DNA from: Candidatus Sumerlaeota bacterium
Lineage (GTDB): Bacteria; Sumerlaeota; Sumerlaeia; JAFGJS01
NCBI GenBank assembly: GCA_016928995.1
Contig: JAFGJS010000081.1
Coordinates: forward strand, 1-39,844
Reading direction: 5' to 3'
DNA: 39,844 bases
Shown here one piece after another: positions 1,571-39,844 of the stretch. Every line of letters begins with the position of its first letter. Positions within the stretch are counted from its first letter, which is position 1. The position numbers and the translations under genes are program-made. The notes under the pieces are model-generated. The model had not been told where the DNA came from, ran no database searches, and worked only from the letters and a program-made list of their open reading frames with translations.

Positions 1571-2755
1571 CTAATTCTCTTCCAATAGCTTCACTGGTTT
1601 GGTGATGAGCGGCAGGCTGATGGTGAAAATCGTGCCGCGGCCGATTTCGCTGTCCACGTGAATGTTTCCGTGATGTTCATCCACGATGCGATAGACATTC
1701 ATCAGCCCCAGGCCGGTTCCTCCGAATTTCGTCGTGTAATATGGCTCGAAGATCAATCCCAGATTTTCGCGCGCGATGCCGCTGCCGGTGTCTTCCACTT
1801 CGATATGCACGCCGCTGTCGTTGAACCAGGTGCGCACCGTGACGCTTCCGCCGAGTTTGGGATCGATGGATTCGCCTGCGTTTTTGATCACATTAAAGAT
1901 CGCCCGTTTCAACTGCTCGATGTCCACCGGGATGCGAGGCAATTCGGGATCCAGTTCGCTTTTTAGTTCCGTCATGGCCGCTTCGAATTCGGGGCGCAGC
2001 GTCTCCATGGTCTGCCGGATCAGGTCGTTGATCGAAGCGAGCTCCATCACAGGCCGGGTCGGCCGGACGGCGCTGAGGAAGCGCTCAATGATTTTATCGA
2101 GCCGTTTGATCTCTTCTTCCACCACGTCGACTGATTTCTCCAGTCTCGGCACGTCGATTTTATTCGCCTCGCCCTTTGCGTTGTTCAGCATCGCCTTGAG
2201 CATCTGCACATGGATATGCAGCGCATTCAGCGGATTGCGAATGTCATGCGCCACGCCGGCGGTCAATGCGGAGAGCGAAGAGAGTTTTTCGATTTGCTTG
2301 CGCTGCGCTTCCTCGCGGCGGATGTCGGAAATATCGCGCAGAATCATCAGCAGCGAGACCAGCCGCCGGCTGCGATCATCCAGAATCGGATAGACAGAGA
2401 TGGAACAGATCGCCGGTTCAGGCTCTTCCAGGATCACTTCGCCTGTTGTGGTCTTGCTGGGATCAAATTCTTTCCTGGCCAGAAATTCGAAGAGTTCCCC
2501 TTTCGCCACGGACAGCAGCGATTTCCCCTCAAGCGGCCGGCGTGAATGCGGCGTGAGCATTTCATGAGCGCGAGGATTCAGGTAAACAAGCGTCAGCTGA
2601 GGATCAGTGACCAGGATTCCTTCGGCCATGTTCGCCAGCACGATCTCGAAAAAATGCTTTTGCTGCACAAGCCGCCGCAGCACGCGTTCGATTTCCGGTG
2701 AATCGACCTTGTTGAGATTGCTGACGAGTTTTTCGACGAATTCCCGCGTGGGCAT
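1571..2755 (-). CDS. Soluble PAS-domain sensor histidine kinase, NtrB-like
   Basis: A 394-residue two-component kinase that autophosphorylates on histidine and passes the phosphate to a response regulator. No signal peptide or membrane segment is visible, so it should sense a cytoplasmic signal. Order of domains: short coiled N-terminus, PAS fold about 30-145, HisKA dimerisation domain with H box AGVAHDIRNPLNALH (phospho-acceptor His170), then HATPase_c with N box around Asn292, G1 motif DTGSGI at 322-327 and G2 motif GGTGLGL at 345-351. This is the NtrB/AtoS class of sequence. GGAGGAG lies 5-7 nt before the ATG. No response regulator is adjacent; the nearest is at 15043, so it is probably an orphan. 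The ligand is unknown. Confidence 0.92.
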   Translation of the reverse strand: MPTREFVEKLVSNLNKVDSPEIERVLRRLVQQKHFFEIVLANMAEGILVTDPQLTLVYLNPRAHEMLTPHSRRPLEGKSLLSVAKGELFEFLARKEFDPSKTTTGEVILEEPEPAICSISVYPILDDRSRRLVSLLMILRDISDIRREEAQRKQIEKLSSLSALTAGVAHDIRNPLNALHIHVQMLKAMLNNAKGEANKIDVPRLEKSVDVVEEEIKRLDKIIERFLSAVRPTRPVMELASINDLIRQTMETLRPEFEAAMTELKSELDPELPRIPVDIEQLKRAIFNVIKNAGESIDPKLGGSVTVRTWFNDSGVHIEVEDTGSGIARENLGLIFEPYYTTKFGGTGLGLMNVYRIVDEHHGNIHVDSEIGRGTIFTISLPLITKPVKLLEEN

Positions 2756-3027
2756 CTTGCTCCTCCGCTTCGCCCAATTTCGATGATAATGGATATTGAT
2801 CTATATCGATGCTTCAAGCATTATTGTAAATCTCCTGCCGCGCAGGACAAGGAAAAAGCGAAAGCCGCGGTACAGAGCTTGCCCGGAACGGTCCTCAGTG
2901 TTTTTTTCTTCATATTCATCGTGGATTGGATTGGGAAAAATCCAAAAATAGGGTCTGTGGTCATTGTAACGTGAGATATCGCAGGGATTTACGTTTTCGA
3001 AAAAAAACGGAAAAAAATTTCATGATT

Positions 3028-3061
3028 TTGCGGGGAAAGTATTCCTTATATATAAAGAGCA
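3028..3061 (+). promoter_or_regulatory. Candidate promoter of the ECF sigma gene, possibly leaderless
   Basis: The 306-bp gap 2756-3061 between the divergent kinase and sigma genes ends in TATATA (3049-3054), seven bases before the ATG at 3062, with a poor -35 candidate TTGCGG at 3028-3033. If this is the -10 box, the transcript would begin at or next to the start codon. Only a weak AGAG lies before the ATG. The rest of the gap is AT-rich and holds a small palindrome (ATGCTT-CA-AGCAT) near 2810-2822. Confidence 0.3.
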
Positions 3062-4975
3062 ATGAAAGACGTTAACCGGCTGATGTCTGACATGCAACTC
3101 AGCGAGTGGGTTGGACTGGCGCAAAAAGGCGACCAGCAAGCCACGGATGAGATTTACCGGCGTTTCAAGGATATGGCGTTTTCATACGCCTATTCGATGC
3201 TTGGCGACATGGAGTTGGCGGAGGATGCGCGGCAAGAGGCTTTTTTACAGGCCTACTGCGATTTAGTGCAACTCAAAGACCCAGAGGCTTTCCCGCTATG
3301 GTTCAAGCAGATCGTGCGATCCAAATCATTGGCGTTGCGGCGCGGCAGACAGGCGATCCTGATTCCGTTGGAAGACGTTCCGGAACTCGAAGCGACCGGA
3401 GAGGCGGTCGCGGAACGGTTGGATCGCAAACGACGGGAGCAACTGGTGAACCGCTCCATCGGGCAATTGCCCCGTGCCGAACGCGAAGTCGTGCGGTTGT
3501 TTTATCTCGAAGGCTGCTCGATGAAAGCGGTGGAACAGCGGACGGGATTGGCGGTGAAAACGGTGCAGAGCCGTCTGCATTCCGCGCGCGTGCGCCTCAA
3601 AGACAAAGTGATGGGGCATGTCAAGGGCATCGTTTGGCAGGAACGCCTGGCCGGAAGGAGTGAAGCTTTGATCTCCGCAAGCCGCGAAGCAATTAAGCAG
3701 TTCGAGGAGGAGATTCGCGAGGTGGGGATGCCGTCCGATGCGAAACAGGCTCGGGCATGCGATCTGATTTGCGCCAAGGGCCGCTTGTTGCGCTTTATGG
3801 GCGAGCATACCGCGGCGCTCGAGGCGTTCCATGCCGGGATGGAATATCCCGTGCTGAAACGCAGGCCGGAATTGCGCGCGCGGTTCATCGTGGAACTCGG
3901 TCTGACGCTGATGCAGACCGCGGAATACGCCCGGGCGGTCGAGCGTTTCGCCGAAGGGTTGGCGCTGCTCAAGAAATTGAAGGCGAATGACACGGAATTG
4001 CTCCGGGGATTCGCGCTGGGAGGGATGGGCTTCTGCGCATGGCATCGCGGTGAATTGGAACGGTCGCGGAGATATTACAGCGAGATGCAGGCGATCGGCC
4101 GCAAACGGAAGGCGCCGGAGCTCTGCGCGGAATCGATGAACAACCTGGCCGCATTGGAGTGGCGCGCGGGAAAACTGGCCGAGGCCATCCGGCATTTCCG
4201 GACATGTCTGCGCGAATGGACGAAACTGGGCAATCGTTTTGGCGCGGCGATGGCGCGGATGAACCTGGGTATCATCGAGGAAAACCAGGGGCGATTGGAG
4301 CCGGCGCGCAAGAGCTATCTGGAGGCGTTGAGTCTTTCGCGTGAACTGGGCTTTCTCCAGTTGCAGGCGCTATCGCTGGTCAATCTATCGAGTTTGGCGC
4401 TGAACGAAGCGCGGTTTGACGCTGCGCGCGAACGGGCGCTGGAGTCTTTGGATTTGATGCGTAAACTGGGGGGCGCGGGAGAATCGGCGGCGCTGGAGAA
4501 TCTCGCCGCTGCCGAACTAGGACTCGGAAATCTCGAAGTGGCGCATAAACAGCTGGAACAAGCGCGTAAAATCGCGGCGCAGGAGCAGGATCCATCCCGT
4601 CAGCTCTCGTTGGATTTATTGGAGCTTGAACTGCGGTTGACGGAAGCCGCGGGTCGCTGGGTTGGGCCGCGCTCTTCTGCTAAGCGATCTCCCAAAGCCG
4701 GGGGAGAAGATTGGCCAGAGGAGCGTCTGGCCCATGCATTGATTCGGGAATTGCTTTCCAGGATGGCTGCGGCGGAAAAACAGGCGCGCCAGCTGCATTG
4801 CGATCAGGAACTGCCGCGCATCTTACGGCTCCGGGCGATGACGAAGGGCGCCGGAGGCCTGTATGCCGCGGCGCGGAAAACGCTCAAACGCGCGATCAAT
4901 CGGGCCGATGAGCAAAACAACCGAATTGAAAACGAACGGCTCAAGTTATTCCAGGCATGGTTGGAGTTGAAATGA
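3062..4975 (+). CDS. ECF-type sigma factor with C-terminal TPR domain
   Basis: A 637-residue protein whose first 190 residues are an ECF sigma-70 factor: region 2 about 25-93 (helices around FKDMAFSYAYSMLGDMELAE, then a QEAF motif) and region 4 about 123-182 with a helix-turn-helix around EGCSMKAVEQRTGLAVKTVQ. The remaining 440 residues are alpha-helical repeats with TPR spacing, for instance AEYARAVERFAEGLALLKKL and GKLAEAIRHFRTCLREWTKL. ECF factors normally end after about 200 residues and are held by an anti-sigma factor; none is encoded nearby, so the TPR tail probably does the regulating or binds a partner (inference). It precedes three secreted-protein genes on the same strand, but a separate promoter lies between, so control of them is only a possibility. 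ATGs at 3083 and 3092 are alternative starts; none has a good ribosome binding site. Confidence 0.88.
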   Translation: MKDVNRLMSDMQLSEWVGLAQKGDQQATDEIYRRFKDMAFSYAYSMLGDMELAEDARQEAFLQAYCDLVQLKDPEAFPLWFKQIVRSKSLALRRGRQAILIPLEDVPELEATGEAVAERLDRKRREQLVNRSIGQLPRAEREVVRLFYLEGCSMKAVEQRTGLAVKTVQSRLHSARVRLKDKVMGHVKGIVWQERLAGRSEALISASREAIKQFEEEIREVGMPSDAKQARACDLICAKGRLLRFMGEHTAALEAFHAGMEYPVLKRRPELRARFIVELGLTLMQTAEYARAVERFAEGLALLKKLKANDTELLRGFALGGMGFCAWHRGELERSRRYYSEMQAIGRKRKAPELCAESMNNLAALEWRAGKLAEAIRHFRTCLREWTKLGNRFGAAMARMNLGIIEENQGRLEPARKSYLEALSLSRELGFLQLQALSLVNLSSLALNEARFDAARERALESLDLMRKLGGAGESAALENLAAAELGLGNLEVAHKQLEQARKIAAQEQDPSRQLSLDLLELELRLTEAAGRWVGPRSSAKRSPKAGGEDWPEERLAHALIRELLSRMAAAEKQARQLHCDQELPRILRLRAMTKGAGGLYAAARKTLKRAINRADEQNNRIENERLKLFQAWLELK

Positions 4976-4999
4976 GGAGCGAACGCCGTTAATTGTCTA

Positions 5000-5028
5000 T
5001 TGATATTTATTATAAGTTCGGTTGTAAT
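5000..5028 (+). promoter_or_regulatory. Sigma-70-like promoter before the secreted-protein genes
   Basis: TTGATA (5000-5005), a 17-bp spacer and TGTAAT (5023-5028); each box matches the consensus at five of six positions. Predicted start of transcription is near 5035, about 40 nt before the gene at 5076. Confidence 0.5.
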
Positions 5029-5075
5029 GCTTTTATGATATATATCGGTCAGCATATAGAGGAGTTGGATGAAAA

Positions 5076-5660
5076 ATGCAGAGATTACTTTTTTCAGCAA
5101 TCTGCCTGACACTTGGATGCATCAGCGACGTTTACTGCCAGGAAACCACAGACACGTACACCCTGGACTATTCGCAATTCGTCATCGGCGGATCGGTCGG
5201 CGAGAGCACGGATTATGGCGTTGTGGACACGCTCCGGGTCGCCAGCGACGACGCCGAGACGCAAGTGGGGGGATCGTATTTGGTGGAAAACGTGATCGAT
5301 AATGATGATCGCGTGAACATCCCGATCCTCAGCGCTCAGGGCACCAAGGTGCGGCTTGAAATCCCGAGCGAATCACTGCCCAAGGGCGCCGTGGGATACC
5401 GGATTATGCGCGCGTATGTCTACCCCTACGGCGGATCGTTTACAGCGCGCGAATTGGTCGTGGGAACGTACTGCTACATCCATGACGGGCTGTTGACGGG
5501 AGGCGTTTATTACGACTACGTGGAGCCTAACCAATACTATGCGTATTTGATCGAAGTGGAACTTTCGGACGGCACGCGTGTGATTCTGACCGCGCCGATG
5601 TTCGTACAGTCCGGCGAGAGCATCAACACCCACGTGCCGGCATGGGATTTGTACCAGTGA
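5076..5660 (+). CDS. Secreted protein with GG-Y motif module, unknown function
   Basis: A 194-residue exported protein that I do not recognise by name. Residues 1-21 form a signal peptide (hydrophobic LLFSAICLTLG core). Residues 28-72 carry a module of the pattern Y-x-L ... GG ... S-x-x-Y-x-v-x-D-x-L-R-V ... GGSYLV that recurs, more diverged, in the next gene (residues 50-98). The remainder is predicted beta-rich with many Tyr and Val and reads like a fibronectin-type or beta-sandwich fold. The last residues are PAWDLYQ, close to PLWREYR at the end of the next protein. AGAGGAG at 5058-5064 could serve either the ATG at 5076 or the out-of-frame ATG at 5069; only the 5076 frame gives a signal peptide. 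The next gene follows 54 bp later on the same strand. Confidence 0.75.
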   Translation: MQRLLFSAICLTLGCISDVYCQETTDTYTLDYSQFVIGGSVGESTDYGVVDTLRVASDDAETQVGGSYLVENVIDNDDRVNIPILSAQGTKVRLEIPSESLPKGAVGYRIMRAYVYPYGGSFTARELVVGTYCYIHDGLLTGGVYYDYVEPNQYYAYLIEVELSDGTRVILTAPMFVQSGESINTHVPAWDLYQ

Positions 5661-5714
5661 ACAAAGTAAAATCGAGCGGGAAGCAATTCATTCATAGAGG
5701 AGGAGGGATCGAAG

Positions 5715-6068
5715 ATGAAACTCAAACGAAGACAAAGGGCGTATGTTGCTTCGGCAAATCCGAGGGTTTTTGTGACCATGATTGCGTTGGCAGTGGGAAC
5801 TTTGATGCTGCTGAGTGCGACTCGACAAGCGCATGCCGTGGGGCCGTTGCGATCCACGGGTTATGATCTGACGTTTGTCCGGCTCAATCAGGGCGGCGAG
5901 GCGGATTCGCAAAGCACCGGCGGCGCTTATGCCATCACGGATCAAGTGCGAGTGACTGGGACGGAAGCTTCGCCGCAGAGCAGCGAGCGTTACACCGTCA
6001 GCGAAGATTTCGATAGTGCGCCTGCCGAAGAAAGCGCGAATTTGCCCCTCTGGCGCGAATACCGGTGA
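5715..6068 (+). CDS. Small secreted protein paralogous to the preceding gene
   Basis: A 117-residue exported protein. Basic N-terminus (KLKRRQR), hydrophobic segment 18-35 and an AHA cleavage site near residue 41 make a clear signal peptide. The mature part is only about 75 residues and consists of one copy of the module seen in the gene before: YDLTFVRLNQGGEADSQSTG, then AYAITDQVRV and ERYTVSEDF. It resembles the GGG-S-GG-x-Y-x-L repeat modules of large extracellular proteins in planctomycete-type bacteria, from general knowledge. It ends in PLWREYR. A strong AGGAGGAGGG lies before the ATG. Function unknown; a surface or matrix role is inference. Confidence 0.75.
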   Translation: MKLKRRQRAYVASANPRVFVTMIALAVGTLMLLSATRQAHAVGPLRSTGYDLTFVRLNQGGEADSQSTGGAYAITDQVRVTGTEASPQSSERYTVSEDFDSAPAEESANLPLWREYR

Positions 6069-7620: not shown

Positions 7621-7711
7621 AATATTAATGGTGGGAGATGCCAGAATCGGTTGCGTCATAAAAAAATCGACAATTCCAGACCGACTGTTTCTGCAAAAAT
7701 CCTGAAAGGAT

Positions 7712-8575
7712 TTAATAAAGGATCCACTGCGCGTCGGCGGAGGTTTCCGGGACGATGGGGATGTTGACGGTTAAGCTGAAACCTTCCTCGTCATAGCCGG
7801 TTGAACTGCTGCAGCGCAAGGTGATGCCATAGGGGCTGCTGGCCGCGCTGGCTGAGATCCAATCGATTTGTCCGGTCGTTGAATCAATCGTCATGCCAGT
7901 CGGGGACGATCCCTGGAATGACCAAGTGACGTCAAAGGTGCTCGCCTGACTGAGAGACGGCAGCAGCGAATAGGGCTTGCCTTGTTTGATTGTATGGTCA
8001 CTGATGTCGGTGATCATCGGCGGCAATGCCGCTTCGGTTCCGCTGTGCATTTCGTCCAGCAGCATGGATCCGGCGCTCCCGGCGTTGAATTCCATGTTTT
8101 CCAGGGCAGTGGTGCCGTAGGCGTTTCCCAAGCCGGACAAGATCTCGATGCCGTTGACGTACAGATCCCATGTGTTCGTGCTGAAGTCCTGGCGAATCGC
8201 AATGCGCGTCCAATCCGTCACCGCGATGCCGGTCGCGCTCCAGGCGCCCGATCCGGCGCCGTTGCCATCCAGGCAGGTGATGCCGCCGGTTGAATGAAAG
8301 AACAACAGGCAGGTGGCGCCGCTTGCCGCAGGCAGGTCTGGATAATCAGAACTGGCTGTCGGCAGGCATTGCAACTCGAACCAGACAACCTCCTCGCTGC
8401 TGCTGGTTGCATAGACCGCCTGACCGGAAGATGCGATTTCGACCGCCTGACTGCCCGACAGCACCGTGACGATCTGAATGTTGGCGGTATTGGTTGTCAG
8501 CCAGCCTTGCTGTCCATTCAAATCGCCCAGCACATAATCCGGCGATTCGAAACCCGTTGTAACGGGCCAGGCAGC
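7712..8575 (-). CDS. 5'-truncated secreted protein with LamG-like and Ig-like parts
   Basis: About 287 residues of plausible protein, reading leftwards. It begins with PVTTGFESPDYVLGDLNGQQ, a sequence that in related surface proteins follows directly after a signal peptide; it continues as a jelly-roll/LamG-like domain (VEIASSGQAVYATSS, FSTNTWDLYVNGIEIL) and a putative Ig domain of the He_PIG type (GKPYSLLPSL, GMTIDSTTGQIDW). It ends QWILY. No start codon or signal peptide exists: upstream of about 8575 the frame continues only as the antisense of the gene at 8582-10150. Both genes therefore lack their 5' ends at the same place. The longer open frame to 8806 is an antisense artefact. Probably a pseudogene or an assembly or rearrangement product. 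Confidence 0.7.
   Translation of the reverse strand, partial: AAWPVTTGFESPDYVLGDLNGQQGWLTTNTANIQIVTVLSGSQAVEIASSGQAVYATSSSEEVVWFELQCLPTASSDYPDLPAASGATCLLFFHSTGGITCLDGNGAGSGAWSATGIAVTDWTRIAIRQDFSTNTWDLYVNGIEILSGLGNAYGTTALENMEFNAGSAGSMLLDEMHSGTEAALPPMITDISDHTIKQGKPYSLLPSLSQASTFDVTWSFQGSSPTGMTIDSTTGQIDWISASAASSPYGITLRCSSSTGYDEEGFSLTVNIPIVPETSADAQWILY
8553..8566. repeat. Palindrome at a head-to-head gene junction
   Basis: CCCGTT-GT-AACGGG, two 6-bp arms around 2 nt. It lies at the point where two oppositely oriented, 5'-truncated surface-protein genes meet, so it may mark a rearrangement or inversion breakpoint. Confidence 0.5.
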
Positions 8576-8581
8576 GGGAGT

Positions 8582-10150
8582 GTCACGACGATTACGCTGA
8601 ATGGCGATTCGATTTCCGTGGCCGGAACGGGTGTGACGGTTGATGGCACTTCCGCCACGATCACAGCCGGAGGCGACTATCTGATTAGCGGCACACTGAA
8701 CGCCGGTCAAATTCGCGTGGAAAGCGCTGACGATAATATTGTGAAGCTGATCCTGAATGGCGTCAATATCACATCTGCCCTCAACGCTCCGATCAGCGTC
8801 GAACAAGCGGATAAGACCGTGATCATTTTGCCGCCTGGTTCCTTGAATACTGTCACCGATCCCGCTTCATATACCTATGTGAATTCTGGAGACGACGAAC
8901 CCAATGCCGCTATTTTCAGCAAGGATGATCTCTCTATCTGCGGGAGCGGCTCGCTGACCATTAACGCCAATTACAATGATGGATTGTCGTGCAAAGACGG
9001 CCTGGTCATCAACGGCGGCACTCTTGTCGTCAATGCGATTGACGATGGCATCCGCGGGAAGGATTACCTCGTGGTGAAGGCTGGCACAATCACGGTCAAC
9101 ACCGCTGGCGATGCGCTGAAATCGGACAATGATACGGATGCGACGATGGGCTATATTCTCATCGAAGACGGCACGCTCAATCTCACGAGCACAGGCGCGG
9201 ATGGATTCGACGCCTATACCGATGCGCTGATCAAGGCCGGGACGATCACCGTGACAACAGGCGGGGGAAGCGGCGTGACGCCGAGTGATTTGATCTCGAC
9301 GAAAGGAATCAAAGGGACGCAATGCGTTATTGTTGACAACGGAACCTTTACGATCAATTCGTCGGATGACGCGATCCATTCGAATACCGACGTTCTGCTT
9401 GATAACGGCACGTATACTCTTTACACCGGAGATGACGCCATCCACGGCGATGCAACGCTGACCATCAACAGCGGCACGATCAATATTTTGACATGTGTTG
9501 AAGGCATCGAAAGCAATGAAATCACATTGAACGGCGGCGATTATCATGTCACAGCGTCTGATGACGCGATGAATTCAAGCGCAGGCACCGATGTCGAAGG
9601 CGACGACGGGAGTTGTTCCTATGTATACGGCGGACACATCGTCTTAACCGCGACCGTAGGGGATGGATGGGACGGCAACGGCGATCTCGTGATGACCGAT
9701 GGCACAGTCATCATTCACGGACCGTCCAGTGATCCCGAGGTGATCGTCGATTATAATGGGACATTCAATATTTCCGGAGGATTATTCATCGGATCAGGGA
9801 GTTCGTCCAATATGACGCAAGCTCCCAGTTCCTCTTCGTCCCAAAATTCCTTAAAGGTGATGTTCACTTCGTCCTATGCCGCGACAACGCTGTTCCATCT
9901 CCAAACCAGCGCCGGCGCTGAGGTGATCACGTTCCGGCCGACTCATCAGTATCGATCGATTGTTTTTTCATCATCCGCACTTCAGACAGGAACCACCTAC
10001 CAGATTTACATGGGCGGATCGCATTCCGGCGTTAATACGGACGGAGTGTATTCAGGAGGAACCTATACCCCAGGAACACTCTACACGACTTTTACCGTGA
10101 CCCAGCGAGTCACTTCATTAGGATCATCAGGGCCGCCCTCCTTTCCTTGA
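8582..10150 (+). CDS. 5'-truncated carbohydrate-binding-type secreted protein (DUF4353-like)
   Basis: About 522 residues with the DUF4353 / carbohydrate-binding domain pattern. It starts TTITLNGDSISVAGTGVTVD, then ATITAGGDYLISGTL, the conserved DEPNAAIFSKDDLSICGSGS block and many beta-helix rungs with the family signature DD-[GA]-I-[HR]-[GS] (DDGIRGKDYLVVKAGT, SDDAIHSNTDVLL, GDDAIHGDATLTI, SDDAMNSS). A C-terminal region after a serine-rich linker (SSSSSQNS) looks like a small beta-sandwich. Members normally have a signal peptide and often domains before this point; here none exists. The open frame extends left to 8294, but that part is only the antisense of the minus-strand gene. There is no ATG, GTG or TTG at the junction, so this copy is probably not expressed as a secreted protein unless the assembly is wrong. 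Confidence 0.75.
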   Translation, partial: VTTITLNGDSISVAGTGVTVDGTSATITAGGDYLISGTLNAGQIRVESADDNIVKLILNGVNITSALNAPISVEQADKTVIILPPGSLNTVTDPASYTYVNSGDDEPNAAIFSKDDLSICGSGSLTINANYNDGLSCKDGLVINGGTLVVNAIDDGIRGKDYLVVKAGTITVNTAGDALKSDNDTDATMGYILIEDGTLNLTSTGADGFDAYTDALIKAGTITVTTGGGSGVTPSDLISTKGIKGTQCVIVDNGTFTINSSDDAIHSNTDVLLDNGTYTLYTGDDAIHGDATLTINSGTINILTCVEGIESNEITLNGGDYHVTASDDAMNSSAGTDVEGDDGSCSYVYGGHIVLTATVGDGWDGNGDLVMTDGTVIIHGPSSDPEVIVDYNGTFNISGGLFIGSGSSSNMTQAPSSSSSQNSLKVMFTSSYAATTLFHLQTSAGAEVITFRPTHQYRSIVFSSSALQTGTTYQIYMGGSHSGVNTDGVYSGGTYTPGTLYTTFTVTQRVTSLGSSGPPSFP

Positions 10151-10204
10151 GCGATGGAGGATTGTCCCATGAACATGGGCAGCTTATCGGGTGCGTATAA
10201 AACC

Positions 10205-10235
10205 AAACCCGCGCTCATGAGCAGAGCGCGGGTTT
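10205..10235. terminator. Terminator hairpin between secreted-protein gene and tRNA-Val
   Basis: A perfect 12-bp stem AAACCCGCGCTC / GAGCGCGGGTTT (10205-10216 with 10224-10235), 7-nt loop. On the minus strand it is followed by GGTTTTAT, so it may also end transcripts running left from the tRNA gene. Confidence 0.7.
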
Positions 10236-10254
10236 GATAGATCCAAGTTGTCTT

Positions 10255-10325
10255 ACTCTTGCTCTTGCTTGAAAAACAGCATGTTGTGCGTCCAAAAGAG
10301 CAAGAGCAAAAGCAGGAGCAAGAGT
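10255..10325. repeat. Second hexamer-type inverted repeat
   Basis: Arms ACTCTTGCTCTTGCTT (10255-10270) and AAGCAGGAGCAAGAGT (10310-10325) pair at 15 of 16 positions; additional GAGCAA units lie inside. Same hexamer vocabulary as the element at 1369-1456, again in an intergenic position. Confidence 0.65.
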
Positions 10326-10431
10326 GATCATTTTTCAGACATGGAACCACGAGGGATGGTGAGTAACCCGGGCCAGGTAAATCGAACGGGAAGGCCAAGA
10401 GGCGGATAAACGCAAGATGAGAAAAGGAAAA

Positions 10432-10509
<78 letters not shown>

Positions 10510-10586
10510 ACGCTCCGCATTCAGACCGGCGAGCTTGCCGCCCGTCCGTAAAAGGAGCCTGATTCCGCCCGATCCGGCAGGGAAAA

Positions 10587-11114
10587 TCAAGTTCTTTTTT
10601 CTTCTTCTTTAGCGAGGCTTTTTTCCAGATAGGTCAGCACATTTTCGAAGCGCAACTTGTTGTTTGGATCCAGATCGGCCAGCCCCCGGTGCGCTTCCAG
10701 GATATGCACGATCTGGTTGTATTTATCGGTTTCGGGCACTTGCGCGGCCTGAAATTCGTCTTCCGGAAGATCTTGGCCGCCGGTGTCCTGATGGCAATCC
10801 AGGATCTGATTGAGCCCCAGAGTGGAGAGCAGTTTCAGGGTGTGCTGATTCAAGTTCATCACGGAGACTTTGCCCATTCCCCGGCGCATTTGTTTGTTGC
10901 CCAGCAATGCCAGCACGCCCATGAAGGTGCTGTCCATATAACTGCACTGCTCCAGGTCGAAAATATAGCGCACGTCGCGATTTTCGTTCTGATAGAGCTT
11001 GTCCAGTTTTTCCAGCGCCATGCTGTTGTTGAACGTTCCGCGACCTTGAACCCGAATGACGATGATGTCGTCATTCAGTTCCGCATATTCCACGTTGTTT
11101 TCTTCCTGATTCAT
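10587..11114 (-). CDS. STAS-domain protein (anti-sigma factor antagonist type)
   Basis: A 175-residue cytoplasmic protein. Residues 10-110 form a STAS fold: strand IIVIRVQGRGTF, then the phosphorylation loop CSYMDSTFMGVLALLG with Ser62 in the place of the phosphorylated serine of SpoIIAA/RsbV proteins, then GKVSVMNLN. A helical extension of about 60 residues (to LEKSLAKEEEKRT) follows and is unusual for a minimal antagonist of about 110 residues. Such proteins bind anti-sigma kinases in partner-switching modules; no kinase or phosphatase partner lies in the window. I chose the start at 11114 because GGAG lies 7 nt upstream; the open frame reaches 11168 but has no protein-like sequence there. 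Confidence 0.82.
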   Translation of the reverse strand: MNQEENNVEYAELNDDIIVIRVQGRGTFNNSMALEKLDKLYQNENRDVRYIFDLEQCSYMDSTFMGVLALLGNKQMRRGMGKVSVMNLNQHTLKLLSTLGLNQILDCHQDTGGQDLPEDEFQAAQVPETDKYNQIVHILEAHRGLADLDPNNKLRFENVLTYLEKSLAKEEEKRT

Positions 11115-34933: not shown

Positions 34934-35034
34934 CGCTGATCTTTGCTGATGATGCTTCGCTTGGGCGCAATTGACGTATTCGGCAAGATGATTGAGTTAT
35001 TTTTAGGGTTCAATCTCAGGACAATGTTTTAGGA

Positions 35035-35094
35035 TGGTGCCGAGGGCCGGAATCGAACCGGCATAAGGCGTAAGCCAAAGGGATTTTAAGTCCC
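35035..35094 (-). pseudogene. tRNA-Leu(TAA) 3' fragment, probable att scar
   Basis: On the minus strand GGGA-CTTAAAA-TCCC (35094-35080) is an anticodon arm with anticodon TAA, followed by a long variable arm, a T arm with GGTTCGATTCC, and an acceptor 3' half CCTCGGC-A-CCA ending at 35035. The matching 5' half (GCCGAGG and a D arm) is absent upstream; the sequence there is AT-rich and unrelated. A 3' tRNA fragment with CCA is what integrative elements leave at one end after inserting into a tRNA gene, so chromosomal DNA should lie to the left and the element to the right. Confidence 0.75.
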
Positions 35095-35171: not shown

Positions 35172-35256
35172 TAGAAACATTTTGTAAAAATATCGGAATG
35201 GGTTTCTACGCTTCCAAGTAAAGCAACGCTCAGCATCAGCGACGGAATACCGACTC

Positions 35257-38200
35257 TCAATTCTGCGCCCTCAATACGCCGGTGCGTGCAAATGCCTCGT
35301 CGAGGCGGCTACGAACCTGCGCAGGTATCAGAGGCAGGCGCGCCTCGATTTTTGCCAGGTCGTCCGCATGGTAGCCAATAGCACAGCCGGCAAGATAAAT
35401 CAGCAGCTCCGCTGTTTCGGTGGGAAACCGTGTGACCAGTTCACTCTCACGCAGTTCGAAAAGGGCGTGGCTGTGCTCGATCCGGATCGCAGGGAAGCGA
35501 ACTGCCAAAGCCACAGCATCCGGAAAGGAGTCGCCAAGGTGTGGCAGCCACTCCAACATCATCCGAATTTCGGCCTCGTCCAAGGCAGCAAGCACGCCCT
35601 GCAATCGATTCTCCCAATAGCTATGAAGCCAGTCATCCCACAATTTTCGTTTAGCGGGCTGTTGCATTTGGTGCAGGAAGTATCCGAGGCGCGATGCGAA
35701 CGCCAATTTATCTTTCAACGAGCCGTGCTGAAAAAGCGCAGGTAGCAAGTGCTGTGTCGGATCGGATACATAGAATGCGGCGAGCGCAGTGTAGAACTCG
35801 ATGAATCGCTGTCGGCGGTCATCAAGATCGGCAGCGAGCTTCGGCATCGCGGCAACGAAAGCCGGCAACAGGGCATCGACAAGCGCCGGATATAAACGTC
35901 CCCACATAAGGAAGCCGTCCCATGCCTGAACAAACATTTCCCGCTCTGAATCACTAAACAACGGAATCAGGTGCTGGTGCGTCCATGCTTCATCTAAGCC
36001 GAATAGGAATGCGGTTTGACTGGCAAGCACGCTGCGACCCATACCACCCTTTGAGGTCGCGTCTTGCATTACCAGTGTGAACCAATGGCGGTAATTTTCA
36101 GGCATAACCCGTTCGGCTCCCGTCTTTCCCTGTACAGACAGTGACAGACCGTTTATCCAGTACTCGACGATGATGCCAGCCGGACGGTTAATGGCGTGGG
36201 ATAGCCAATCATCTATTTTTTCGTCCTGGTCGTTAGCCTCCAGGGCTTGCCATACGGGCAGCGCGATGGCGTTCGCTTGCTCCAGCAAGTCGAGCGCAAA
36301 TGGCTTACCGCCATCCCTCACCAAGGCGTAAAGCAGATTCGCAATGTCGTAAGCATACGCCGACTGTAGCACCGGATTGGATACCAATGTCAGCAATTTA
36401 TGCCAGCCTTCCGCAGGAAGTTCGGATTCTTGCAGTCCCCGGATTAATGCTGGCCATAAGTCAGATGACCACAGTTCCCGACCAGCTAGGGCCTGTCCCA
36501 GCGAAAATGCCCAACTGGTGTTCTGTTTGCATGCCTCGCGACCATTGGCCAACAATCCCTCGCGGCTTGGCTCATCGAAGCGATTATCCTCGAAACTCAG
36601 CAAGTCATCAAGCTGTTCGCGAGGCTCCCGGGCGAGGAGTTGCTCGACGGACCAAGGGCTCTCTGAGCCCACCCAATCCACTGATCCAATCCAGTGGGTG
36701 AGGTCTGCATGATCCGACGGCCGCCAGTCTGGATACTGTGCCTTGATTAGTGCCAAGGCTGCATCTACTAGCTCACAATCGGGCTTAGCCTGGAGCAGCC
36801 AGGACAGCCAGTCGAAATGCGAGCGTGCAGTTCGCTCCTCGGCAGACCAACCATTGGAAGCCGGCAGTGTGTGCACCAAGATTGCGTCAAGGACGGCCTT
36901 TCGCGCTGACGCAGCCGCGGCTGCATAACTCAGCGCTACAGCGCGATGGACTTCGTGATGCTCGGAAAGTTCATGAAGGTCTAGGCGATCCAGCAACCAC
37001 TTTAGGCGTTCTTCAGGCGATAGTTCGGAATGCACCGTTATCGCGTGTACGGCCAACCGACGCAGCAGGGGAACATCCGAAGTCACCAGCCTCTCGATCC
37101 AAGCATCGAGCAACACAGGAGAATTTGCTGCGAGCCACTCGAGCGCATCGCGCGCGACGTCAACTAGGACGTCAACGGCATCCGGATGCCGGTCTTGATC
37201 ATGCGGCTCGATAGCCGAACGCCTGTAGCTGACTGGATCCCATTCACGCGATGCCTTGTCCCAAGCTGATAACTCGCTGTGCATCTCCTCTAGGCGTAGC
37301 GCAACACCCGATAACAGCGGCTGCGCAACTCGCGCCAAGTGTGGCCTTAGGTGCTTCGTCCAAACTTCGTTCAGCGACCAGTGATCGGCTCGCAGCGGAC
37401 ACTCCACGTCCAGCCGGCGGTGTTTACTCCCCTCTTCATCGGGCCACACGAAGCCGGGTTTGACGCTGAGCCGGTGTTCGCTCATTGCCATGAACACCAT
37501 CAGCGTCAGTTCGATACACCCCTGGCTCGCACAACGCTCAGCCAACCACGTCAACACGTGGTGATCTGCATTGGCTGGTGCGCTCGTAAGCAGGATGGTG
37601 GCCCAGCGTTTGAGCGCAGGCTCTTCTAGTGGTTTCTCCCTCATGACGCCGATCTTACGACCGATGGACCACCAGAGTGCCGGGCTCAACCGCAGTCCAT
37701 GCGTCGCAACGATCTCGAAGACCTCGTCCGGGTGGTTGATCGCGAAATGCTGCGCTAGCCACTCAGCTAGTAGCATATCCCGCTCGTTAAGGTCAGCAGT
37801 GCCAAAGAGTGCATCGAGATGCTTACGTCCGTTCAGCCACCGGAGCCATTCCGGATCGCGCGCGACATTGAGCAGAAACCGCGTCGTGTACACCTCTCGC
37901 AGTGCCTGCTCGACCTCACTGATCGCTTCTTCATCTGTTGGGGGAGTGCGGCCGCCCATTTCAGCAAGACGCGACTGCCAGTCCAGCGCTCCTCGCGTGG
38001 TTCGCTCGGCGAGTCGCTGCACACCGTCGTAGAGTTCCTTAAATGGATTCGCGCCGATGCCTTTCACGAAGCGGATGGGCGTGATGCCCAGCAACTCCCA
38101 GTTTCCATCCTCATCCGTCAAGGCAAACCGGCCCGCGACACTGTCGGCCGGCAGCGCGCGAGCCAGATAGTTCATCACGACATCGTTGTGTCTGTAGCCG

Positions 38201-38775
38201 ACGAATAGCACTGTGTATTGGCGGAAAACATCCACAAGGAATCGGCGTGCCCAGCCCTCGGTCAGGTAGGCCCGGCCGAAATCCGTATCCGTTAGCACGA
38301 AATCCCGCGCCCGTGGAAGAGCGCCATGAACGTGAACGATGCCAGAAAAGTCGTAGCCGAGAGGTAAAGCGGGTGCCCGATATACATCGGGAATAGTGCC
38401 GAACAAGGTATTGGCGGCGGTCTCGAAGTGTAGATCGAAGTTGGTGGTCACCAGCTTGACGTGGTCTGCAGTCCGAAACAGCCGCAACAGGTCGTGATGT
38501 AGTGCGTTCGGAGCGCTTCCTGCTGGTGAAAGGAGCTGAGCGGCGCGCTCATGAACGGCAACGTTGCGGTAATGCAGCTGGCCCAGAAATCGATCCAGCG
38601 GCTCGCTGGGAGTGAGGCCGGTGCCTTGGGCGATGTCGCAGGTCAGCTTCCAAAAGCTGGCTAGACTCGACGGCGGCCCCATTGAAACGCCGGCACCGGC
38701 GAAGACGATGAGCCGGTCGTCGCGCAGCGCGTCGAGAATTGAGTTCTTAAAATCGATGGCACCTAGCTTCGTCAT
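35257..38775 (-). CDS. SIR2-domain defence protein with large helical C-terminus (DUF4020-like)
   Basis: A 1172-residue soluble protein. Residues 1-260 form a SIR2_2-type NAD-binding domain: LIVFAGAGVSMG (22-33, NAD loop), TTNFD (110-114, Asn112), HVHG (148-151, His150 as the likely catalytic base) and VLFVGYRHNDVVMNYLARAL. Bacterial proteins of this class are phage-defence NADases that kill or arrest the infected cell by consuming NAD. The rest is a long helical repeat region; the end (FPAIRIEHSHALFELRESEL, then LLIYLAGCAIGYHADDL) fits DUF4020, which I know as a frequent partner of SIR2 in such proteins. Start: ATG at 38775; an in-frame TTG at 38781 has GGAG at better spacing. The longer open frame to 38856 crosses an attC-like site and is rejected. 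The ATG lies 38 nt after the attC core, as in integron cassettes. Confidence 0.85.
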   Translation of the reverse strand: MTKLGAIDFKNSILDALRDDRLIVFAGAGVSMGPPSSLASFWKLTCDIAQGTGLTPSEPLDRFLGQLHYRNVAVHERAAQLLSPAGSAPNALHHDLLRLFRTADHVKLVTTNFDLHFETAANTLFGTIPDVYRAPALPLGYDFSGIVHVHGALPRARDFVLTDTDFGRAYLTEGWARRFLVDVFRQYTVLFVGYRHNDVVMNYLARALPADSVAGRFALTDEDGNWELLGITPIRFVKGIGANPFKELYDGVQRLAERTTRGALDWQSRLAEMGGRTPPTDEEAISEVEQALREVYTTRFLLNVARDPEWLRWLNGRKHLDALFGTADLNERDMLLAEWLAQHFAINHPDEVFEIVATHGLRLSPALWWSIGRKIGVMREKPLEEPALKRWATILLTSAPANADHHVLTWLAERCASQGCIELTLMVFMAMSEHRLSVKPGFVWPDEEGSKHRRLDVECPLRADHWSLNEVWTKHLRPHLARVAQPLLSGVALRLEEMHSELSAWDKASREWDPVSYRRSAIEPHDQDRHPDAVDVLVDVARDALEWLAANSPVLLDAWIERLVTSDVPLLRRLAVHAITVHSELSPEERLKWLLDRLDLHELSEHHEVHRAVALSYAAAAASARKAVLDAILVHTLPASNGWSAEERTARSHFDWLSWLLQAKPDCELVDAALALIKAQYPDWRPSDHADLTHWIGSVDWVGSESPWSVEQLLAREPREQLDDLLSFEDNRFDEPSREGLLANGREACKQNTSWAFSLGQALAGRELWSSDLWPALIRGLQESELPAEGWHKLLTLVSNPVLQSAYAYDIANLLYALVRDGGKPFALDLLEQANAIALPVWQALEANDQDEKIDDWLSHAINRPAGIIVEYWINGLSLSVQGKTGAERVMPENYRHWFTLVMQDATSKGGMGRSVLASQTAFLFGLDEAWTHQHLIPLFSDSEREMFVQAWDGFLMWGRLYPALVDALLPAFVAAMPKLAADLDDRRQRFIEFYTALAAFYVSDPTQHLLPALFQHGSLKDKLAFASRLGYFLHQMQQPAKRKLWDDWLHSYWENRLQGVLAALDEAEIRMMLEWLPHLGDSFPDAVALAVRFPAIRIEHSHALFELRESELVTRFPTETAELLIYLAGCAIGYHADDLAKIEARLPLIPAQVRSRLDEAFARTGVLRAQN

Positions 38776-38813
38776 GTGCAAGGGTTTCTCCAAGGCAGGT
38801 GTTTCGCCGGGAG

Positions 38814-38872
38814 GCCTAACGTTTGAACTGTGCGGCGCGGTCCATTGCATCCGCACTAGTGATTGGTTAGGA
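38814..38872 (-). mobile_element. attC: Integron attC-like recombination site (59 bp)
   Basis: On the minus strand the site starts TCCTAAC and ends TTCAAACGTTAGGC. The outer boxes pair (CCTAAC / GTTAGG); the core GTTAGGC fits the G/TTRRRY consensus, cut between G and T. The inner boxes GTGCGG and CCGCAC pair around a 15-nt variable tip, with adjoining AGT/ACT pairs and one unpaired extra base, the asymmetry expected of attC. The ORF before it stops inside the first box (TCCTAA) and the SIR2 ORF begins 38 nt after the last. The outermost base of the first box deviates from the RYYYAAC consensus. No integrase gene or second attC is visible in the window. Confidence 0.7.
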
Positions 38873-39034
38873 GTCTTTTTCGATAAATCCCAACAGTTTC
38901 TTAAACTCGTCCTCTAACTCCTCCAGAATGGGAGGGACATCATTTCGCAGTCGCTTGTATGCCTGTCGCCAGAGCCCAGAATGATCTGGTTTGTAATCAT
39001 GGTCCTGTAGAATCGGATTTCCAGTAAAGTCATG
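38867..39034 (-). pseudogene. 3' end of a truncated cassette gene
   Basis: In one minus-strand frame 55 codons read as convincing protein (GNPILQDHDYKPDHSGLWRQ, then NDVPPILEELEDEFKKLLGF) and stop with TAA inside the attC-like site. There is no start codon; the frame is closed by TGA at 39035-39037, beyond which the sequence changes character. This is the C-terminus of an unknown, charged helical protein from the neighbouring cassette, cut by a junction near 39035. Confidence 0.5.
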
Positions 39035-39388: not shown

Positions 39389-39844
39389 TTCCCCACGTCA
39401 CTTGGTATAAGATCGTAATTGATCAACTCTGCCTGGTTGATTGTGATGTCGGCGGCGGCGAAGTGGCAGCAGATGAGGCCGATGGCGGGGTTTTCCCAGG
39501 TGTACTTGTAGTGGTCGATCGTGCCGGTGAAGTGGGTGATGCTGGAGTCGCCATCTGCCCGGCCGCAAAACGATAGGTCGCGGTCAGAATATTGCCCTAG
39601 GATGGACATGCCAACCGCGACAGCGTCGTCGCCTTCGGTGTAGGCGACATCGAAGCCTTCGCCGGAAACGTAGAAACTGAAGCCGACGAACTTGTTTTTC
39701 GCGGACAGGTAGGCGTCGATGAATCCGCTGGCGTCGATCACGAAGTAATTGCCGATCTTCGCGGCCGATGAAACCGCCTGCGACGACAAGACATACGGCT
39801 GCAGGTTGCCGCTCACGAATTTCCAGCCGATCAGGCCCAGCGCG
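39385..39844 (-). CDS. Partial gene running off the window, probably secreted beta-rich protein
   Basis: The last 153 residues of a protein whose frame is open to the window edge (LGLIGWKFVSGNLQPYVLSS and on), so the start lies outside. The GTG near 39816 is internal, not a start. The sequence is beta-rich with Gly, Ser and aromatic residues (IGNYFVIDASGFIDAYLSA, KNKFVGFSFYVSGEGFDVAY, HFTGTIDHYKYTWENPAIGL) and resembles the surface-protein style of the rest of the window, but I cannot name a family. It converges on and overlaps the small gene at 39152 by 4 nt. Confidence 0.6.
   Translation of the reverse strand, partial: ALGLIGWKFVSGNLQPYVLSSQAVSSAAKIGNYFVIDASGFIDAYLSAKNKFVGFSFYVSGEGFDVAYTEGDDAVAVGMSILGQYSDRDLSFCGRADGDSSITHFTGTIDHYKYTWENPAIGLICCHFAAADITINQAELINYDLIPSDVGN

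Follow-up and report, generated by a model that had tools for sequence, protein, structure and literature searches.

Integrons have recently been recognised as reservoirs of antiphage genes, and a 1172-codon SIR2 gene lying just behind an attC-like site in a Candidatus Sumerlaeota genome raises the question of whether a defence gene of this length could have been acquired as an integron cassette. The window, by which we mean the whole 39,844-nucleotide stretch that was analysed, is one complete contig (C124) of a draft genome of 4.55 Mb (161 contigs, 92% complete). With 39 genomes in the collection, the class of its host is small and stands apart from the groups carrying the closest DSR1 homologues; the low numbers for class and phylum alike point to a phylum that has been little sampled. 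The explanation we favour, and consider quite probable, is that this lineage acquired a DSR1-like sirtuin gene, with a putative NADase defence role, on a single integron cassette of unusual size (~3.6 kb) that was later stranded. The features on which this reading is built are listed in Table 1.

Table 1. Coordinates of features in the window and of the attC on plasmid pNHAL01.
Feature	Position	Strand	Description
tRNA-Leu(UAA) 3' fragment	35034..35094	minus	Matches the 3' portion of this genome's intact tRNA-Leu (contig C32) at 94% identity
Putative remnant of the DSR1 cassette's own 3' attC	35222..35245	minus	24 nt, right half, CGCTGATGCTGAGCG/TTGCT
DSR1-like ORF	35257..38775	minus	1172 aa; SIR2_2 and DUF4020; ATG at 38775, stop ends at 35257
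N-terminal SIR2_2 NADase-type domain	about residues 15-235		
DUF4020	about residues 1008-1127		Within the long, apparently alpha-helical C-terminal part
Leader of the putative DSR1 cassette	38776..38813	minus	38 nt; about 90% conserved with Oxalobacteraceae locus L011
attC	38814..38872	minus	R'' TCCTAAC, R' GTTAGGC; end of the truncated cassette that precedes, and 5' limit of the putative DSR1 cassette
GTTAGGC core of the attC	38820-38814	minus	Expected cleavage between 38820 (G) and 38819 (T)
3' end of 5'-truncated ORF, previous cassette	38867..39034	minus	55 codons, no start codon; TAA stop within the attC (translation)
attC at L040, Nitrosococcus halophilus plasmid pNHAL01	3783-3877		22.7 bits; the annotated dsr1 starts about 100 bp downstream

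The gene encodes a DSR1-like protein retained under selection

The original prediction of a minus-strand SIR2 defence-type gene was correct in start, length and strand. Pfam detected SIR2_2 (E 1.1e-16) and DUF4020 (E 7.4e-11) in the 1172-aa protein, and the best PADLOC family was Dsr1 over both halves (E 2.4e-68 and 8.7e-59). Like DSR1 (NF041818, PADLOC Dsr1), it is a single gene with an N-terminal SIR2 domain carrying TTNFD and HVHG motifs, followed by a long, apparently helical C-terminal part with DUF4020. In contrast to DSR1, the protein is 1172 rather than about 1263 aa long, is 23–26% identical to annotated Dsr1 proteins, and scores 266 bits against the NCBIfam Dsr1 model (NF041818), whose equivalog cut-off of 1400 it does not reach, so that it falls outside strict DSR1 membership. 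Because of this score and this level of identity, the protein is, as judged by sequence comparison, DSR1-like and a member of a separate subfamily.

The catalytic-type residues N112, D114 and H150 were invariant in an alignment of 9 homologues and aligned with the NADase domains of ThsA and KomC; in the PDB, the SIR2 profile of the window protein matched ThsA, KomC and DSR2. A dN/dS of about 0.19 relative to its two closest homologues indicates that the gene has been retained under purifying selection. An AlphaFold2 model built from 12 sequences was of low confidence (pLDDT 57.7, with the SIR2 part <50), its C-terminal part alone being usable, and showed that part as nearly all-helical, as had been predicted; a model built from 3 sequences reached a pLDDT of 45. 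When the low-confidence model was searched with Foldseek, it retrieved HEAT-type solenoids, with DSR2 (8wya) at rank 36, at low TM-scores that were mostly 0.1–0.25.

That the protein is instead a regulatory or metabolic NAD-dependent enzyme is rather unlikely. Its function is read from its family, and its score lies below the NCBIfam Dsr1 cut-off; however, Dsr1 is its best PADLOC family over both halves and its SIR2 profile matches the defence proteins named above. Furthermore, its homologue in an Oxalobacteraceae genome lies beside a DS-1-like defence gene pair, and its homologue in a Hoeflea genome lies between hsdM and a GmrSD-like gene. No homologue of the protein was found in phage records. 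A promoter scan upstream of the gene gave no site on the minus strand close to its start, and the number of sites was no higher than in shuffles; this result is consistent with, but no proof of, a promoterless cassette.

The site upstream of the gene is an attC

At the attC, the two core sites are complementary at 6 of 7 bases and the bottom strand folds into the attC cruciform. The original prediction had named an attC covariance model as a check, and we scored the site with our own model, built from 15 attCs of the Oxalobacteraceae integron L024 and of class 1 plasmid integrons, with the window site excluded. The site scored 34 bits, with an E-value of 2e-5 in the locus set (119 kb), 6.6e-6 in the window and 7.5e-4 in the whole genome. 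This score lies within the range of true attCs outside the training set (19.6–44.5 bits), and the runner-up site in the window scored 11.7 bits even with filters off. When 39.8-kb windows were shuffled, a simple attC-like scan gave 0.2 matches per strand. Pattern and covariance-model searches of the entire 4.5-Mb assembly found this site only. Rfam matched no attC-type family in the window; its only matches were a tRNA-Val at another position and a weak tRNA-Sec that falls on the tRNA-Leu fragment. Plasmid DNA, searched with either the attC or the 3' remnant as query, gave chance-level matches alone. Overall, its sequence, fold and score identify 38814–38872 as a genuine attC, as had been proposed.

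The leader between the attC and the SIR2 ORF has the length originally given. The foreign ORF described on the 5' side of the attC is a 5'-truncated fragment with its stop codon inside the attC, and no confident homologue was found for it.

Homology to an Oxalobacteraceae locus begins at the cleavage point

The closest homologues of the protein are encoded at locus L011 of Oxalobacteraceae bacterium OM1 (82% protein identity) and locus L012 of a Hoeflea MAG (79%). Nucleotide homology between L011 and the window extends over 3,554 bp at 83% identity, beginning at 38822, two bases before the G/TT cleavage point, taking in the leader and ending at the 3' end of the gene, with no clear homology upstream. 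At the same place 5' of DSR1, L011 carries its own attC (5903–5958, 25.4 bits), which is different from that of the window; a second L011 attC lies at 2726–2785 (32.8 bits). The 5' boundary in the window is located at the attC R' core (G/TTRRRY), where the 34-bit attC and the L011 homology breakpoint coincide. The original prediction had also looked to relatives for the same upstream sequence outside an integron context, and the relative that shares the leader, L011, is likewise positioned directly 3' of an attC. Both this check and the covariance-model check spoke for the original prediction. The genome that carries L011 encodes two integron integrases scoring over the cut-off and at least 20 attCs, with a long attC array.

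Between its two attCs (2726–5958), L011 carries a two-gene segment of ~3.2 kb that directly precedes DSR1 and lies beside a Tn7/Tn5053-like transposon. The segment consists of an NA37/YejK-type gene and a partner, which resemble DS-1 anti-phage proteins (E 3e-17 and 1e-22) and both score under the NCBIfam cut-offs. Downstream of the L011 DSR1 gene are two TniQ genes and a TniB gene, together with a large ORF where TniA would be expected.

These comparisons bear on the possibility that the attC-like hairpin is palindromic by chance, with no integron involved, to which we attach hardly any weight. It is true that the site is single and that IntegronFinder 2, by default, requires at least two attCs to report a CALIN, which limits false positives (PMC9024848). 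However, the E-values obtained for the whole genome and the locus set, the position of the site exactly at the homology breakpoint and the presence of a second attC at the same place in L011 all argue against coincidence.

A candidate attC remnant and a tRNA-Leu fragment lie beyond the stop codon

At the Hoeflea locus L012, DSR1 is followed by an attC-like site (9581–9638, 9.4 bits) with intact R'', L'' and L' arms and a degenerate R'. In the window, the putative remnant located 12–35 nt after the stop codon is identical at 18 of 20 positions to the right half of this Hoeflea site, compared with 14 of 20 for the best of 60 shuffles. A complete 3' attC of the DSR1 cassette is not present, the right-half remnant being all that was found there. 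Acquisition of the DSR1-like gene as a ~3.6-kb cassette is the most likely account of these data because L011 abuts a different attC, because homology starts at the cleavage point, and because the right half of the Hoeflea attC-like site appears to survive in the window. No attC lies directly 5' of the L012 DSR1 gene, the nearest being 3.3 kb upstream. The order of genes at L012 2783–10243 (partial hsdM, full hsdM, DSR1, and an ORF that reads by eye as a C-terminal piece of hsdM) suggests insertion or recombination inside a restriction-modification locus.

The tRNA-Leu 3' fragment lies 162 bp past the DSR1 stop codon and is a likely att site, marking the far end of an island integrated at a tRNA gene. 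The ORFs adjoining the intact tRNA-Leu on C32 (G000:C32:1788-3179) resemble, by eye, a frame-broken tyrosine recombinase; an island integrase is unproven because Pfam finds no match in these ORFs.

Few other DSR1 loci carry an attC

No credible attC was found at 37 other Pseudomonadota DSR1 loci (207 kb), where the best match scored 14.4 bits (E 1.5). Among 19 viral and plasmid DSR1 loci, a single one, that of Nitrosococcus halophilus plasmid pNHAL01, had a credible attC. As in the window, the pNHAL01 attC lies upstream of the gene; it differs in that the gene encodes a canonical-type Dsr1 that is 26% identical to the window protein and no 3' attC was found, and its association with dsr1 is apparently independent. 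No attC was present in the examined stretches of two further homologues, L029 (71%) and L042 (61%). Cassette mobility is thus not universal even within the subfamily, since L012 has no direct 5' attC and L029 and L042 have none. A single-protein scan of viral contigs found no DSR1 homologue, and an alignment-based scan found 22 loci, of which the closest was L042 (61%, no attC). Within the host's own class, a 42%-identical DSR1 is encoded at L015 (G006:C186, 2936–6517), a locus at which no attC was found and an IetA-like ATPase gene lies upstream of DSR1.

The scarcity of attCs at these loci and the proximity of the tRNA-Leu fragment could be taken to mean that the attC, though real, belongs to the truncated neighbouring cassette and that DSR1 came to lie beside it by chance after a separate arrival, carried for instance by the tRNA-Leu island. 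We regard this as unlikely, while granting it a small share of the probability: the usual contexts of DSR1 do differ from that of the window and the 37 sampled loci lack a credible attC, but L011 homology begins at the cleavage point, L011 independently has a different attC there, and past the stop codon the window shares with L012 the right half of an attC-like site.

The locus reads as a stranded former cassette in its host

No integron integrase scoring over the TIGR02249 cut-off was found in the host assembly (92% complete), the best match reaching 61 bits versus 265. The searches for an intI gene and for additional attC sites that the original prediction had called for were thus negative in this assembly, the latter both by pattern and by model. 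Upstream of the attC, an array could be followed over 1 kb, up to the end of the contig at 39844. As in a CALIN, the attC has no neighbouring integrase; the window differs from a CALIN in holding a single intact attC rather than two, and it has no intI beside an array, as a complete integron would. Of the arrangement first described, the genuine attC and the cassette-style 5' boundary hold, whereas consecutive integron cassettes do not: there is one attC, the 3' attC is a remnant, no integrase scores over the cut-off and a tRNA-Leu fragment lies alongside. The locus therefore reads as a stranded ex-cassette with no working array, perhaps brought in by the island.

We also considered whether an error of assembly or binning could have placed proteobacterial DNA at the DSR1 end of the contig. 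Proteobacteria do supply the closest homologues, and the DSR1 block is at a contig end, yet several observations make an artefact very improbable. The tRNA-Leu fragment on the junction side is closely similar to the genome's own tRNA-Leu (Table 1), the GC3 of the DSR1-like gene (0.63) falls between the extremes seen for the window's other genes (0.51–0.82), nucleotide identity to the proteobacterial copies is only 80–83%, and genomes of the same class bear attCs of their own. Matches to attC were obtained in four scanned genomes of the class, the host included, and one of these, G012, carries a real attC cluster. This cluster (locus L136, G012:C5:28000-46000, 7680–10669, minus strand) comprises three strong and two weak attC matches with no visible integrase. 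The product of one L136 cassette (7744–8670) is a 308-aa protein with a TIR_2/SEFIR domain; a further cassette is present twice in almost identical form.

Discussion

In the cassette reading, an integron integrase would have joined the DSR1 cassette downstream of the attC of another cassette, with the acquired segment running from G/TTAGGC at 38820/38819 to the G/TTGCT remnant at 35227, a distance of about 3.6 kb. Stranding would have involved loss of the left half of the DSR1 attC and of the 5' end of the preceding cassette, in a genome in which the integrase is not found, and the block would now occupy the distal end of an apparent tRNA-Leu-integrated island. NAD+ depletion by DSR2 goes with recognition of a phage tail tube protein, and the NADase of DSR1 inhibits phage (PMC10952713). 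By analogy with this family, the helical C-terminal part of the window protein would sense a phage product and free the N-terminal SIR2 NADase, whose activity would lower NAD+ and thereby block phage replication.

Antiphage cassettes are already known from sedentary and mobile integrons (Darracq et al. 2025, Kieffer et al. 2025 and Getz et al. 2025, as described in PMC12444791 and PMC12409362). In these accounts, as apparently in the window, a defence gene is bounded by attC sites. The two differ in that integron-borne defence systems are described in review as streamlined to small size, with larger systems absent (PMC12409362), whereas the window cassette would measure ~3.6 kb and has been left stranded, there being a single intact attC and no integrase having been found. 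The original remark that a single-gene SIR2 cassette of this kind would be unusually large is well founded, given that the longest cassette in a 2009 cassette database was 1,860 bp (PMC3087341). Integron-borne defence being known, what is new here is how large the cassette would be, that the gene recurs behind different attCs, and the host in which it is found.

A broader proposition, which we regard as evenly balanced, is that integrons move large defence systems (>3 kb) across phyla, such that the DSR1-like subfamily (in the window, in Oxalobacteraceae and perhaps in Hoeflea), the ~3.2-kb DS-1-like pair of L011 and, separately, the Nitrosococcus dsr1 would all have been acquired as cassettes, and the rule of small size would be a tendency and not a limit. 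Taken with the attC matches that four members of the host's class (itself among them) gave, the ~3.6-kb DSR1 cassette and the ~3.2-kb DS-1-like cassette suggest that the limits on cassette size and on integron hosts may be looser than has been thought.
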